From Thermosediminibacter oceani DSM 16646 (GTDB taxonomy: Bacteria; Bacillota; Thermosediminibacteria; Thermosediminibacterales; Thermosediminibacteraceae): a stretch of DNA of 64,000 bases. Positions within the stretch are counted from its first letter, which is position 1. Each line of letters begins with the position of its first letter. The notes beneath the pieces were generated by a model that worked only from the letters and a program-made list of their open reading frames with translations, made no database searches and had not been told where the DNA came from. Shown here piece by piece: positions 20,546 to 25,010 of the stretch. Location of the stretch: the NCBI RefSeq assembly GCF_000144645.1, contig NC_014377.1, positions 1,798,001 through 1,862,000 on the forward strand, given 5' to 3'. The position numbers and the translations under genes are program-made.

Positions 20546-20823
20546 AAAAAATAATTTTTGCATCGGTTTTTACCCTAGACAGACTAAAAATATTACCAAC
20601 ATAACCTAAAATCCATACTTCATTGCAATGTAGGTACCTATGAGGCGCACTCCCGCAACTTTTTTTGACAGACCATATAAAGTCTTTTCCACAAACATAT
20701 GTTATTTTAACAACTTCTAAGTAATATAACAAATCTGTATGTCCTTCCATGAATTGCAAAGGCAAAAAGAAAAACAAAAAGCTGAAAAATGATATAATTA
20801 TAATGAAAGGGGGTAGCGGCGTC

Positions 20824-21981
20824 ATGACCAAAACAGCCAAAGTAGCTATAAGCACATCTGTTCTTCTCTGGGCTCTAGAGAGATCGGGTAGAGCTTCTGT
20901 AGTAAAGCGGAAGTTTCCTAAATTATCCCAGTGGCTACGCGGGGAAAGTATGCCTACTTTGAAACAGTTAGAAGACTTAGCAAAGGCGACATATACTCCG
21001 CTTGGTTATTTCTTTCTTCCAGAGCCACCAGTGGAGCAACTTCCCGTCCCCTATTTTCGCACCATCAATAATCAACCTATGCGCCCATTTAGCCCCGAAC
21101 TCATTGATACTGTTCAGATGATGAAACTGCGCCAATATTGGATGCGTGATTATCTTATCGAAGAAGGACAAGAACCTCTATCTTTTGTCAACTCTGCAAA
21201 ACTTGAAGATGATCCTCGTCAAGTGGCTCGAAATATAAGAAACACATTAGGACTTGAAGAAGAATGGGCAGCAAGCCAGCGTAATTGGACTGAAGCATTA
21301 CGAAAATTGCAAATCAAGATGGAAGATATAGGTATAATTGTGGTTGTTAATAGTATTGTAGGAAATAATACACGTCGTAAACTTAATCCGACTGAATTTC
21401 GAGGTTTTGTTCTGATAGATGAATATGCGCCCTTAGTATTTGTAAATGGTGCTGACGGTAAAGCTGCTCAGATGTTTACTCTAGCACATGAATTGGCTCA
21501 CGTATGGTTCGGTATTAGTGCAGCATTTGATCTAAGGGATCTTCAACCTGCTGATGATGAAACTGAAAAAATTTGTAATATTGTTGCAGCAGAGTTTTTG
21601 GTTCCCGAGCATAAATTTCATGAAGTTTGGATTCACGTTTCTGATGAATCTGAACCTTTTCAGTTACTTGCTCGCCATTTTAAGGTTAGTGAACTGGTTG
21701 TTGCCCGTAGAGCCCTTGACTTAGGATATATTACAAAAGAAGAATTTATCGAATTTTATAAGGACTATCAAGCTAAAGAGCGCCTTGTCACTCAAGACAG
21801 TGAAGGGGGTAACTTCTACGCAATCCAAAATATGCGCGTTGGCCGGCGTTTTGCAAAAGCTGTGGTATGTGCTGTTAGAGAGGGCAAACTTCTCTATAAC
21901 GATGCCTATCGACTTACAGGGCTTTATGGGAAAGCTTTTGAACGATATGCAGAGATACTTGGATTTGGAGGTTTATTATGA
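20824..21981 (+). CDS. HTH + ImmA/IrrE metallopeptidase (antitoxin-type)
   Basis: Two-part protein of about 385 residues. An N-terminal XRE-like region (KLSQWLRGESMPTLKQLEDLAKAT) precedes an ImmA/IrrE-type (COG2856, DUF955) domain with the zinc motif HELAH and the downstream Glu in AAEFLVP. The ATG at 20824 is chosen: aaaggggg lies before it and A+T-rich -10-like sequences (20793-20804) lie upstream, making an earlier ATG at 20749 unlikely. Its stop overlaps the ATG of the DUF4411 gene (ATGA). This gene pair is a known toxin-antitoxin-type arrangement, here expected to be antitoxin/regulator first. Low G+C relative to neighbours points to transfer. Confidence 0.85.
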   Translation: MTKTAKVAISTSVLLWALERSGRASVVKRKFPKLSQWLRGESMPTLKQLEDLAKATYTPLGYFFLPEPPVEQLPVPYFRTINNQPMRPFSPELIDTVQMMKLRQYWMRDYLIEEGQEPLSFVNSAKLEDDPRQVARNIRNTLGLEEEWAASQRNWTEALRKLQIKMEDIGIIVVVNSIVGNNTRRKLNPTEFRGFVLIDEYAPLVFVNGADGKAAQMFTLAHELAHVWFGISAAFDLRDLQPADDETEKICNIVAAEFLVPEHKFHEVWIHVSDESEPFQLLARHFKVSELVVARRALDLGYITKEEFIEFYKDYQAKERLVTQDSEGGNFYAIQNMRVGRRFAKAVVCAVREGKLLYNDAYRLTGLYGKAFERYAEILGFGGLL

Positions 21982-22478
21982 CCAATAACTCTGTATACGT
22001 TTTGGATGCTAATATTTTTATACATGCAGCACGATTCTACTATGCTTTTGACATTGCGCCGGCCTTTTGGAATGCTTTGGTTACACATGCTCAGAGCGGA
22101 CGTGTGATTACTATTGATCAAGTAATGAAAGAAATAGAACGAGGAAAAGATGATCTAGCGAAATGGATAAAGAATACGTTTCAAACTTGGTGTAAACCGA
22201 CCACAGAAACTGACGTCATTGAAGCCTATAGGGATATTATCAAATGGGTATCCAATCAGAACCAGTTTTATGAAGAGGCTAAAAAAGAATTTGCCAACGT
22301 TGCAGATGGTTGGTTGATTGCGTATGCAAAGGCCAAGGGATTCGTGGTAGTTACACATGAACAATTAAAATCAGAAAAAAAGAATAAAGTTCAAATTCCG
22401 AATGTTTGTAATGCATTCAATGTTCCTTATACAAATACATTTGAAATGCTCCGTAGATTAGGTGTTCAGTTTCGTTGA
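21978..22478 (+). CDS. DUF4411 family protein, PIN-like nuclease (putative toxin)
   Basis: The 166 residues match DUF4411, a PIN-fold family. Acidic residues sit where PIN nucleases hold metal: YVLDANIF near the N-terminus, MKEIERGKDDL in the middle and NVADGWLIAYA toward the C-terminus, followed by VVTHE. It overlaps the stop of the HTH-ImmA/IrrE gene by 4 bases, so the two are cotranslated. RNA cleavage as a toxin is inferred from the PIN fold and the pairing; no activity can be read directly. No gene follows for 216 bp. Confidence 0.82.
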   Translation: MTNNSVYVLDANIFIHAARFYYAFDIAPAFWNALVTHAQSGRVITIDQVMKEIERGKDDLAKWIKNTFQTWCKPTTETDVIEAYRDIIKWVSNQNQFYEEAKKEFANVADGWLIAYAKAKGFVVVTHEQLKSEKKNKVQIPNVCNAFNVPYTNTFEMLRRLGVQFR

Positions 22479-22694: not shown

Positions 22695-23876
22695 TCAGCA
22701 GGAATTCCCGCCTTTCAATCCATCTTTTACATGAGATGACTTCCCGGCTGGAAAGTTAAAATATGCGTTGATCAAGAAAAACGCCGTCGCGGCAGCAATA
22801 CCGCAGACGATAAAGGCTGTCTCAATGGAAACGTCCGCAGCCCGGCCCACGATGAGGTTTATGACAGCGCATATTACGTTGATTATCATAGAGTAGATCG
22901 ATAAAAAGGTAGCCCTGTCGGTGGTGGTTATGGATCTATTTTGTATATCCAGCAATATCGGCCGGGACAGTGAATAACTTGCTCCTATAACTGCGATGAA
23001 AACAACGCTGACAGCAGGATGACTCGTGCGGGAAAGGATAAAACAACTGGCGGCAATGGCGCCGAACAGCAGCTTCATAGCCATCCCCTGGCCCAACTTC
23101 CCGGTAATGGTGTATGTTTTTGCCGAAAACACCGGCGAAAGCTGCATCCCTGCCATGATTATGCCGAAGTACTTTGGGTCAATGCCGCTTTTCATATATT
23201 GAACCTGATTTAAAAAGACCGTCGCGGAGTGGTTGACCTGGGTAACCAGCGCCGCGGCTATGACGAGCAGCAACATCCGCAAGTCTCTAAACGCACTTTT
23301 GAGGCTGGATAAAAGGACCGGTTTATTTCCGGTTCTGCGCCCGGTCTCCTGAAGGAACAACGTCAATACCCATGCAATCGCGTAAGGAAAAATAGTAAGT
23401 AGAGCGGCCATGTCCATCGATACCCCGACTACGGCGGTGGATACCATCGATGCCAGGAAAAATCCCAGCGTAGCAGCCGTCTCGTATCTCCCGAAATATT
23501 TTTCCGACTGCTCTTTATCGATAGAATCATAAAGCAATGCAATATCGCACCCCGAAATGCCGGAGATCGAAAGGGCGAGGATTATCCTCTCCAGCAAGAA
23601 TAACTCGAAAGAGCCTGCCTTGTAGAAAATTATCTTGGACAAGAAAAACAAAAAGTTGGAAATTACCAGGGTCAGCTTGTAACCAAACCTATCAGCAAAC
23701 CATCCCCAGGGAATTTCCAACATTATCATCAATACCAGTGAAACCGATTCGATTAAAAATATATCATACATTGAAAGTCCCCTAGCCTGCCTGTACACGG
23801 TGGCTATGGGCCCGTAAAATACGAATCCCTGGAGAAATACGATGGCGCACATTAAAAAGTAATTTCGCCTATTCAT
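22695..23876 (-). CDS. MFS transporter, leader-controlled, putative efflux pump
   Basis: A 393-residue major facilitator protein with about 12 hydrophobic segments and motif A-like WGWFADRFGYKLTL between helices 2 and 3. The start at 23876 is supported by aggaggtg upstream; the longer frame (to 23903) has no such site. The substrate is unknown. Its most striking feature is the mRNA leader, which can pair a 14-base segment with the ribosome binding site and start codon and encodes a 4-codon leader peptide, an arrangement known from antibiotic-inducible resistance genes. That context favours a drug efflux role (inference). Confidence 0.85.
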   Translation of the reverse strand: MNRRNYFLMCAIVFLQGFVFYGPIATVYRQARGLSMYDIFLIESVSLVLMIMLEIPWGWFADRFGYKLTLVISNFLFFLSKIIFYKAGSFELFLLERIILALSISGISGCDIALLYDSIDKEQSEKYFGRYETAATLGFFLASMVSTAVVGVSMDMAALLTIFPYAIAWVLTLFLQETGRRTGNKPVLLSSLKSAFRDLRMLLLVIAAALVTQVNHSATVFLNQVQYMKSGIDPKYFGIIMAGMQLSPVFSAKTYTITGKLGQGMAMKLLFGAIAASCFILSRTSHPAVSVVFIAVIGASYSLSRPILLDIQNRSITTTDRATFLSIYSMIINVICAVINLIVGRAADVSIETAFIVCGIAAATAFFLINAYFNFPAGKSSHVKDGLKGGNSC

Positions 23877-24010
23877 TTGATGTACACCTCCTGAAAATTG
23901 CATGCCGAAAAGACCTCCCGCAGGAGGCCTTTAGAACCTGCAAAATTGTGGTGTACATCAAATCAGCGCCATGGTACCTCTCCTTAAAAAAGCTTATCGA
24001 TTAAATTATA
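23875..24010 (-). promoter_or_regulatory. attenuator-like leader with sequestered ribosome binding site
   Basis: In transcript order: a TATAAT -10 (24010-24005, -35 poor), a leader-peptide RBS (aaggagagg), a 4-codon ORF, a 14-base arm (23963-23950, atttgatgtacacc), a 9-bp hairpin with a short U run (about 23932-23908), then the exact complement of the arm (23888-23875) covering the distal RBS and the first two bases of the pump's start codon. The hairpin's cctcctg can also pair with the caggagg of the RBS, offering an alternative fold. This is the logic of erm/cat-type translational attenuation. Confidence 0.75.
23958..23972 (-). CDS. leader peptide MALI
   Basis: ATG-GCG-CTG-ATT-TGA, preceded by aaggagagg at a 4-base spacing. 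Codon 4 and the stop codon lie inside the upstream arm of the 14-bp stem that hides the pump's ribosome binding site, so a ribosome paused here would disrupt that stem. The coding assignment rests on position and RBS only. Confidence 0.55.
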   Translation of the reverse strand: MALI

Positions 24011-24059: not shown

Positions 24060-25010
24060 TCACTGCTCCAGGTTCTCATCTTTCTGCGGCTGCGAATCTG
24101 CCTTCATTTTTTTCTTTTCCGCCATCTGCCTCAGCCGGCAGAAGGAACAGACTTCGGCGGTGGTCACCTGGCCGCAGATGCTGCACTCGCGCAGGTCCGG
24201 AGTTTCGGAGCAGGCTTCAAAATTTTTTCTTCCTTTCTTCAAAAAGTTGGTAAGAAACCGCTGCTTGGTACCGGGACTCGCCTCTTCCAGTTTATTCAGC
24301 ACTTCCTTATACAGTATGGAACTGGCGCCCAGCGCATGAGGGCATTCTTCATGGATGAAACTGATGCCGTTGAATAATACATACGCCAGGTTTTCCCTTT
24401 CCGTCAGGGTAAACAGGGGTTTTACCTTCTTTACCAGTTTGGGGTGGGTACTGGGAAGCACCGGCGATTGCCGGGCCAGGTACCCTTCCTGCCAGCTCAG
24501 CACGTTTCCGAGAAGAGTAGCTGCCTCGTCGTCCAGGTTGTGTCCGGTGGCCACCACGTCGAATCCTTCGTCCAGAGCCACTTTGTTGAAAAGGTACCTT
24601 TTTATCGTGCCGCATAGGGAACAGGTGCTGCGGCGGATTTCCCGGGCTAACCATGGGATGTTTAAGCCGTACTCTTTTTCGATGTTCTTTACTATCAGGG
24701 GAGCCTCATGTTCTTCAGAAAACCGCTCGACGACCTCCTGGGACCTTTCCGAATAGTCGCCTATTCCCAGGTTAATATACATGGCAGTGACGTCGTAACC
24801 CTCTTTTAGCAATATGTGCCATAGGGCCATGCTGTCCTTCCCGCCGGATACTACGACCAGCACCCGATCTTTGGGGCCGAACATCTTTTCCCGCCTTATA
24901 TTCCGGCGCACCTGTTCCGAGTAGTAAACCTGAAAGCAATCGCTGCAGAAAGCCGCGTTGTGTCTTTTCAGGTATATTTCCGCCTTATCACCGCAGCGGC
25001 GGCAGCGCAT
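24060..25010 (-). CDS. ttuA: TtuA-like tRNA 2-thiouridine synthetase
   Basis: TtuA/TtcA-family enzyme that thiolates tRNA; TtuA makes 5-methyl-2-thiouridine at position 54, which stabilises tRNA in thermophiles. The 316 residues have an N-terminal zinc site (CRRCG...CSDC), the PP-loop VVSGGKDS, the Fe-S cysteines in CSLCG and HEECPHA, and a C-terminal zinc site (CSICG...CSFC). The ubiquitin-like sulfur carrier needed by TtuA is encoded immediately upstream (15 bp), which separates it from TtcA. Assignment of the U54 target is by family and neighbour. Confidence 0.88.
   Translation of the reverse strand: MRCRRCGDKAEIYLKRHNAAFCSDCFQVYYSEQVRRNIRREKMFGPKDRVLVVVSGGKDSMALWHILLKEGYDVTAMYINLGIGDYSERSQEVVERFSEEHEAPLIVKNIEKEYGLNIPWLAREIRRSTCSLCGTIKRYLFNKVALDEGFDVVATGHNLDDEAATLLGNVLSWQEGYLARQSPVLPSTHPKLVKKVKPLFTLTERENLAYVLFNGISFIHEECPHALGASSILYKEVLNKLEEASPGTKQRFLTNFLKKGRKNFEACSETPDLRECSICGQVTTAEVCSFCRLRQMAEKKKMKADSQPQKDENLEQ

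Follow-up and report, generated by a model that had tools for sequence, protein, structure and literature searches.

The 64,000-nucleotide window analysed here is part of the single-contig, 2.28 Mb genome of Thermosediminibacter oceani and carries, on the minus strand, a gene for a 393-aa transporter of the MFS_1 family (positions 22695–23876; Pfam MFS_1, E = 1.2e-23). Upstream of this gene lies a four-codon leader ORF on the same strand, and directly upstream of the leader follows a gene for a TtuA-like PP-loop tRNA thiolation protein (24060–25010, minus strand), a neighbour that is kept at the homologous loci L003 and L005 and absent from L006. On the plus strand and convergent with the pump gene, positions 20749–22478 encode an IrrE/ImmA-type peptidase-domain protein overlapping a DUF4411 protein, a pair that looks like a two-gene accessory module.

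The pump weakly resembles multidrug and Tet(42) models, far below their cut-offs, and reaches the cut-off of none of the NCBIfam resistance models. Its nearest solved structure by sequence is NorA, a match too weak (E = 7e-4) for a substrate to be deduced from it. Since no antiporter motif C was recognisable when the protein was read by eye, drug export may be called plausible, and not more than that. The subfamily is marked by the signatures LQG..FYGPIAT.YR, E.PWG..AD..GYK, SGcD, LNQ and RAT.LS and has a patchy distribution, being present in 4 of 9 genomes of its own family, 34 of 207 in the Clostridiaceae and 8 of 295 in the order of G390 (the labels Clostridiaceae for family f138 and Oscillospirales for this order are inferred). 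Homologues are also found on plasmids of Paraclostridium and Roseburia.

A four-codon leader and the helix P1

The leader ORF ATGGCGCTGATTTGA (23958–23972, minus strand) reads ATG GCG CTG ATT TGA, i.e. MALI-stop. Its Shine–Dalgarno (SD) sequence AAGGAGAGG (23977–23985, minus strand) matches the anti-SD over 7 nt, and an SD precedes the leader in the homologues as well. A short leader ORF with its own SD, as claimed by the original prediction for this locus, is thus present closely upstream of the pump gene (ORF at 23972–23958, SD at 23985–23977), which is the arrangement seen in translational attenuators. The same prediction had called a leader of four codons unusually short; this remark fails because leader ORFs of three to four codons are known for ABC-F genes (MRI, MIN, MK[L/Q], MAGN), including cplR with MR[I/M], vmlR with MIN and lsaA with MAGN (PMC10201436, PMC9226507).

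A candidate −10 element, TATAAT, is located upstream of the leader (24005–24010, minus strand) and precedes the leader in close relatives, too; no good −35 element was found upstream of it in T. oceani. At L013, L015 and L016, the leader is preceded by TTGACA-17-TACAGT/TACATT, and, taken over the whole set of homologues, promoter scores exceed those of shuffled sequences by a small margin only.

The end of the leader is complementary to the translation start of the pump, and the predicted helix between the two is here termed P1. Its 5′ strand, arm 1 (ATTTGATGTACACC; 23950–23963, minus strand), consists of the last sense codon, the stop codon and 8 nt beyond, and therefore overlaps the leader ORF from codon 4 (ATT) onwards. 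The 3′ strand, arm 2 (GGTGTACATCAAAT; 23875–23888, minus strand), takes in the end of the pump SD, the spacer and the AT of the start codon; of the SD itself (AGGAGG; 23887–23892, minus strand), the last two G lie inside P1. The two arms form a perfect inverted repeat (14 nt, 100% complementary), and both this exact match to the distal ribosome-binding site (RBS) plus AT and the start of arm 1 at the fourth leader codon had been predicted correctly. Among 79 SD-preceded candidate starts in the window, for each of which the segment from −20 to +3 was searched within −150 to −30, the longest exact complement to the RBS–start region measured 14 nt at the pump, and the runner-up reached 8 nt; the complementarity of the arms is far beyond chance. 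Folding of the minus-strand leader–pump region points the same way, yielding an RBS-hiding hairpin of −52.1 kcal/mol (z = −5.35) that none of 200 shuffles equalled.

Two further stems are predicted between the arms. P2 joins TTGCA (23939–23943) to TGCAA (23898–23902), and P3 is a terminator-like hairpin of 10 pairs, AAAGGCCTCC-TGCG-GGAGGTCTTT followed by T (23908–23932; all on the minus strand), with four T in a row that span the stem end, at the end of the 3′ strand.

Conservation of the leader among homologous pumps

Fifty related MFS pumps, non-redundant and with a readable upstream region, were compared from the Thermosediminibacteraceae, Clostridiaceae, Oscillospirales and other families. 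Leaders of 3–12 codons are recognisable at 46 of them; the four loci of this set at which none was recognisable are L034, L040, L052 and L054. The leader-bearing pumps are homologous at 35–91% identity, and most of the 46 leaders have five (25) or four (10) codons. In the closest relatives, the leader, the arms and the hairpin are kept while the region upstream diverges, and L006 retains all three despite a different upstream gene.

The peptide MALI recurs in L003 and L006, and L005 has MAPI. Overall, the commonest form is M-x-R-P-I-stop, and distant leaders in the same place include MRKPI, MYRPI, MFRPI, MNRPI, MNNPI, MNCPI, MRSPI and MSPI, in addition to MVDI, MADI, MRSNPT, MCRPV, MNNVLH, MHLQD, MRH and MRRP. 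A lack of conserved arms upstream of orthologous pumps would have spoken against the original prediction; instead, both the leader and the arms are kept across Clostridia, with covariation. Judged by such comparisons, the leader switch before related pumps in dozens of Clostridia is real.

A sequence-only model of the leader region (R1) was applied to 207 Clostridiaceae genomes. The model proved specific: the strong matches that could be placed were all situated before this pump or before a broken copy of it (L070), and hence there was no hint of a drug by way of other resistance genes.

Covariation of the arms and selection on the peptide

The comparison of homologues indicates that the arms are conserved as a duplex and not as a sequence. 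With all 46 leaders included and no selection for pairing, the summed duplex energy of each leader's own arms was −551.7 kcal/mol, versus −335.2 ± 17.6 kcal/mol for swapped arms (20,000 permutations, p ≤ 5e-5). Covariation in homologous leaders, an anticipated hallmark of such a helix, was then seen in a set of 23 distinct arm pairs, required to have 10 or more of the 12 pairs and thus selected towards pairing: double changes affect 9 of the 12 P1 pairs, amounting to 29 cells versus 6.9 ± 2.2 in shuffled data, and 90% of cells pair in the true register versus 27–46% in slid registers. The stop codon and its partner triplet mostly match each other, as TAA/TTA (22 leaders), TGA/TCA (9), TAG/CTA (2) and, with a G-U pair, TGA/TTA (6), and in L050 (MRRP-stop, CCT TGA TACGCC) the arm partner is GGTGTATCAAGG. 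Compared with L020 (ATTTGAtgTACACC / GGTGTAcaTCAAAT), Thermosediminibacter has arms extended by 2 nt on either side, and the P1 duplex as defined here is weak in the distant homologues L009, L026, L055, L015 and L018. RNAalifold returned no pairs for an alignment of 26 sequences because indels in the arms were misaligned.

The pattern of covariation bears on a reading at the level of DNA, in which the inverted repeat would be an operator bound by a repressor dimer and the leader ORF an accident. While the palindrome TGTACA within the Thermosediminibacter arms is in keeping with an operator, no fixed motif survives in the arms of the homologues, which covary as base pairs; the leader shows an SD, a fixed position and codon-degenerate conservation, and no such regulator gene directly adjoins, making this reading extremely improbable. 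A plain riboswitch or RNA thermometer with a dispensable leader ORF would account for the strong RBS-hiding hairpin, but scarcely for the fact that the conserved parts are the leader SD, the start codon, Pro, the last codon and the stop; moreover, no conserved aptamer-like loop is present and Rfam contained nothing relevant at the gathering threshold or at E ≤ 1, so that there is little to commend such an element either.

Conservation of the penultimate Pro is of special importance in this regard. All four of its codons (CCA, CCG, CCC and CCT) are used, the information content at codon positions 1, 2 and 3 amounts to 1.10, 0.92 and 0.20 bits (reduced set), and the bases of the codon lie mostly outside P1. 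Because Pro is kept through four synonymous codons that are mostly outside the helix, the pattern is best explained by selection at the level of the leader peptide itself, which lends indirect support to a drug-dependent arrest of the ribosome there. The last codon, which is ATT in 30 and ATC in 2 of the 46 leaders, is weaker evidence when Ile is taken alone because it is also constrained by pairing in P1. The ending P-I-stop is present in both lineages separated by the deepest split in the pump tree, and the MALI of Thermosediminibacter is probably a derived form, MAPI occurring in its neighbours.

The common ending Pro-Ile also invites comparison with amino-acid attenuators, in which uncharged tRNA-Ile or tRNA-Pro would stall the leader and induce a transporter that exports or balances amino acids; a shortage of Ile-tRNA would indeed stall the ribosome at the right place. 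However, the leader contains a single Ile and a single Pro codon and no run of either, Ile is replaced by Val, Thr, His or Asp or is absent altogether (P-stop), Pro gives way to Leu, Asp or Gln, and the transporter is found patchily, in 34 of the 207 Clostridiaceae species. Starvation for an amino acid is accordingly an unlikely signal for this switch.

The inner hairpin and a claimed second fold

In most homologues, P3 looks like an intrinsic terminator placed between leader and gene, as in transcription attenuators: 29 of 48 leaders have a hairpin of this type with a run of at least four T between their arms, versus 3.5% of shuffled inner regions. In the T. oceani window, the U run is weak. 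The inner hairpin and its short T run had been noted in the original prediction, albeit with 9 bp where 10 pairs are now counted.

The switch could consequently be mainly a transcription attenuator, P3 serving as the terminator, stalling on the leader allowing readthrough and P1 playing a secondary part. The frequency of hairpins with T runs favours such a reading, as does the fact that the mef/msr, vmlR and msrD leaders work in this way (PMC4335068, PMC9226507, PMC10314930). Yet, in 11 of 12 folded leaders P3 forms with high probability whether or not a ribosome occupies codon 4, and no alternative, ribosome-dependent antiterminator that would let stalling control P3 was seen in the folds of these 12 leaders. 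The strongest covariation, furthermore, belongs to P1, whose 3′ arm lies beyond the terminator and holds the RBS and start codon, and the Paraclostridium plasmid homologues, which lack a terminator hairpin, nevertheless keep the leader and an RBS-hiding hairpin. Control exerted mainly through termination is therefore rather improbable. Given that P3 is weak or absent in some members and that no antiterminator is apparent, translation is ranked first and termination second, and the cplR leader of Clostridioides difficile, where attenuation of translation is sufficient and termination has an additional effect (PMC10201436), is a likewise ordered case.

The original prediction additionally proposed a second, mutually exclusive fold between CCTCCTG of the inner hairpin and CAGGAGG of the pump RBS. 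The complementarity does exist in T. oceani. The nearest relatives, however, retain just CCTCC/GGAGG or CCTCCG/CGGAGG, and most Clostridiaceae, with CCTTT in the hairpin, lack it. For this reason, a functional second fold is unsupported.

Proposed mechanism

Comparison among homologues establishes the leader ORF, conservation at the peptide level, the covarying helix P1 and the hairpin P3. On these grounds, the element is very probably a ribosome-sensing attenuator of the MFS transporter gene that acts chiefly at the level of translation. With the switch idle, ribosomes would pass quickly over the four-codon leader, and its last codon, its stop codon and the next 8 nt would then pair with the region from the RBS to the start codon of the pump. 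The resulting P1, closed further by P2 and P3, would keep the pump from being translated, and P3 probably also terminates part of the transcripts. A ribosome slowed or arrested at the stop codon or the sense codon before it, on the other hand, would cover arm 1, so that P1 could not form and the pump RBS would be exposed. We infer from this scheme a translated leader, an opening of P1 on stalling and a stall at the Ile codon or the stop; the inducer would be a ribosome-targeting compound, which the pump possibly exports.

Folding with the footprint of a ribosome masked is compatible with this scheme. When codon 4 was placed in the P site, the mean unpaired probability of RBS and start codon in T. 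oceani rose from 0.14 to 0.62; in several other leaders the RBS was clearly freed as well, and in L028, L011 and L012 little so. A ribosome stalled there is thus predicted to be in a position compatible with opening the hidden RBS. Arm 1, counted from the P-site codon, measures 14 nt, roughly as far as a ribosome commonly extends in the downstream direction from the P site. Because the masked folds and the start and length of arm 1 fit together, a stall at the stop codon or the sense codon before it is favoured, with earlier leader codons as less likely positions. Arrest at a stop codon has a precedent in MsrDL (PMC10314930).

A candidate outer helix in Thermosediminibacteraceae

In T. oceani and other members of its family, a candidate outer helix, P0, might enclose the entire switch. 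Its 5′ strand (23961–23983, minus strand) would comprise the leader RBS, the start codon and codons 2–4, and is 78% complementary to the 3′ strand (23831–23853, minus strand), which lies within pump codons 8–16. A fold that includes P0 reaches −72 kcal/mol (z −7.13). The z values for P0 itself are −5.0, −4.1, −6.0 and −3.9 in four Thermosediminibacteraceae members, and P0 is absent in six Clostridiaceae (L020, L028, L031, L037, L042 and L048) and in L019, with z from 1.3 to −1.9. If formed, P0 would hide the leader's own RBS once the 5′ end of the pump gene has been transcribed. The leader would then be readable only before this point or during translation of the pump, i.e. the switch would carry a double lock with a latch. 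Given the common ancestry of the four sequences and the constraint that the encoded protein places on the coding strand, P0 as a second lock is a lead only.

A bolder reading would combine these features, with P-I-stop being a new arrest motif that has been under selection throughout the depth of Clostridia and senses a particular inhibitor or metabolite, either at the final codon or during termination, and with the Thermosediminibacteraceae version double-locked by the outer helix. We consider this possible, yet tentative.

Relation to known attenuators

The original prediction likened the locus to the translational attenuators of erm and cat genes, a view that gains support from the conserved and covarying leader and arms; the closest known design, however, would seem to be the dual attenuation of the cplR type rather than ermC. 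With the cplR leader of C. difficile (uORF MR[I/M]; PMC10201436), the element shares an ultra-short leader, a hidden SD, a terminator-like hairpin and its occurrence in Clostridia. In contrast to cplR, which controls an ABC-F ribosome protection protein, the present leader precedes an MFS_1 transporter and encodes a different peptide, and whereas the terminator stem itself hides the SD of cplR, here RBS and start would be hidden by a separate helix, P1, apart from P3. P1 is built with the leader's own last codon and stop.

As in ermC and cat, a stalled ribosome on the leader is proposed to free a hidden RBS, and the arm overlaps the end of the leader. Unlike in these systems, the leaders mostly have four to five codons and mostly end in P-I-stop, no rRNA methylase or acetyltransferase is involved, and a terminator-like hairpin is found inside the loop. 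MFS drug pumps of the cmlA and tet(L) type are under leader-peptide control, too, with longer leaders and in other pump subfamilies. Short leaders are further shared with msrD, whose MsrDL (MYLIFM; PMC10314930) arrests at the site suggested here, and with mef(E) (PMC4335068), mef likewise encoding an MFS pump; these two, though, are cases of transcription attenuation in macrolide resistance, and no relation between the peptide sequences was seen.

The best reading of the comparisons is that the switch would resemble in its working the erm, cat and cplR attenuators, whose defining traits are drug-dependent arrest and resistance, and that it differs in its pump subfamily and in its peptide motif, which would be new. 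A search of the open-licence literature found neither these peptides (MYRPI etc.) nor any clostridial MFS pump preceded by a leader of this type, which constitutes a weak form of absence; a widespread leader-peptide switch with a signature of its own (mostly M-x-R-P-I-stop), tied to one MFS subfamily in Clostridia, is apparently undescribed. Members of the switch include gut and plasmid-borne clostridial ones. Because most arrest motifs are inhibitor-specific, the leader could serve as bait for whatever the transporter gives protection from; it also provides a minimal model of four to five residues for drug-dependent arrest at or near termination.

Degenerate and divergent copies

Several loci depart from the common layout. 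L007 (G002:C15, 1390–1800) is a truncated second copy of the pump in a relative, in which the arms ATTTGATACACA / TTTGTATCAAAT are kept and ATT stands where the leader ATG should be. At L070 (G1187:C12), a leader encoding MYRPI and a hairpin precede a pump gene with a large internal deletion. L008 and L025, both on plasmids of Paraclostridium bifermentans, combine a homologous pump with a different, compact attenuator: right after the leader MHLQD follows a hairpin, GCCCCTA.../...TAGGGGGC, that would hide the pump RBS.
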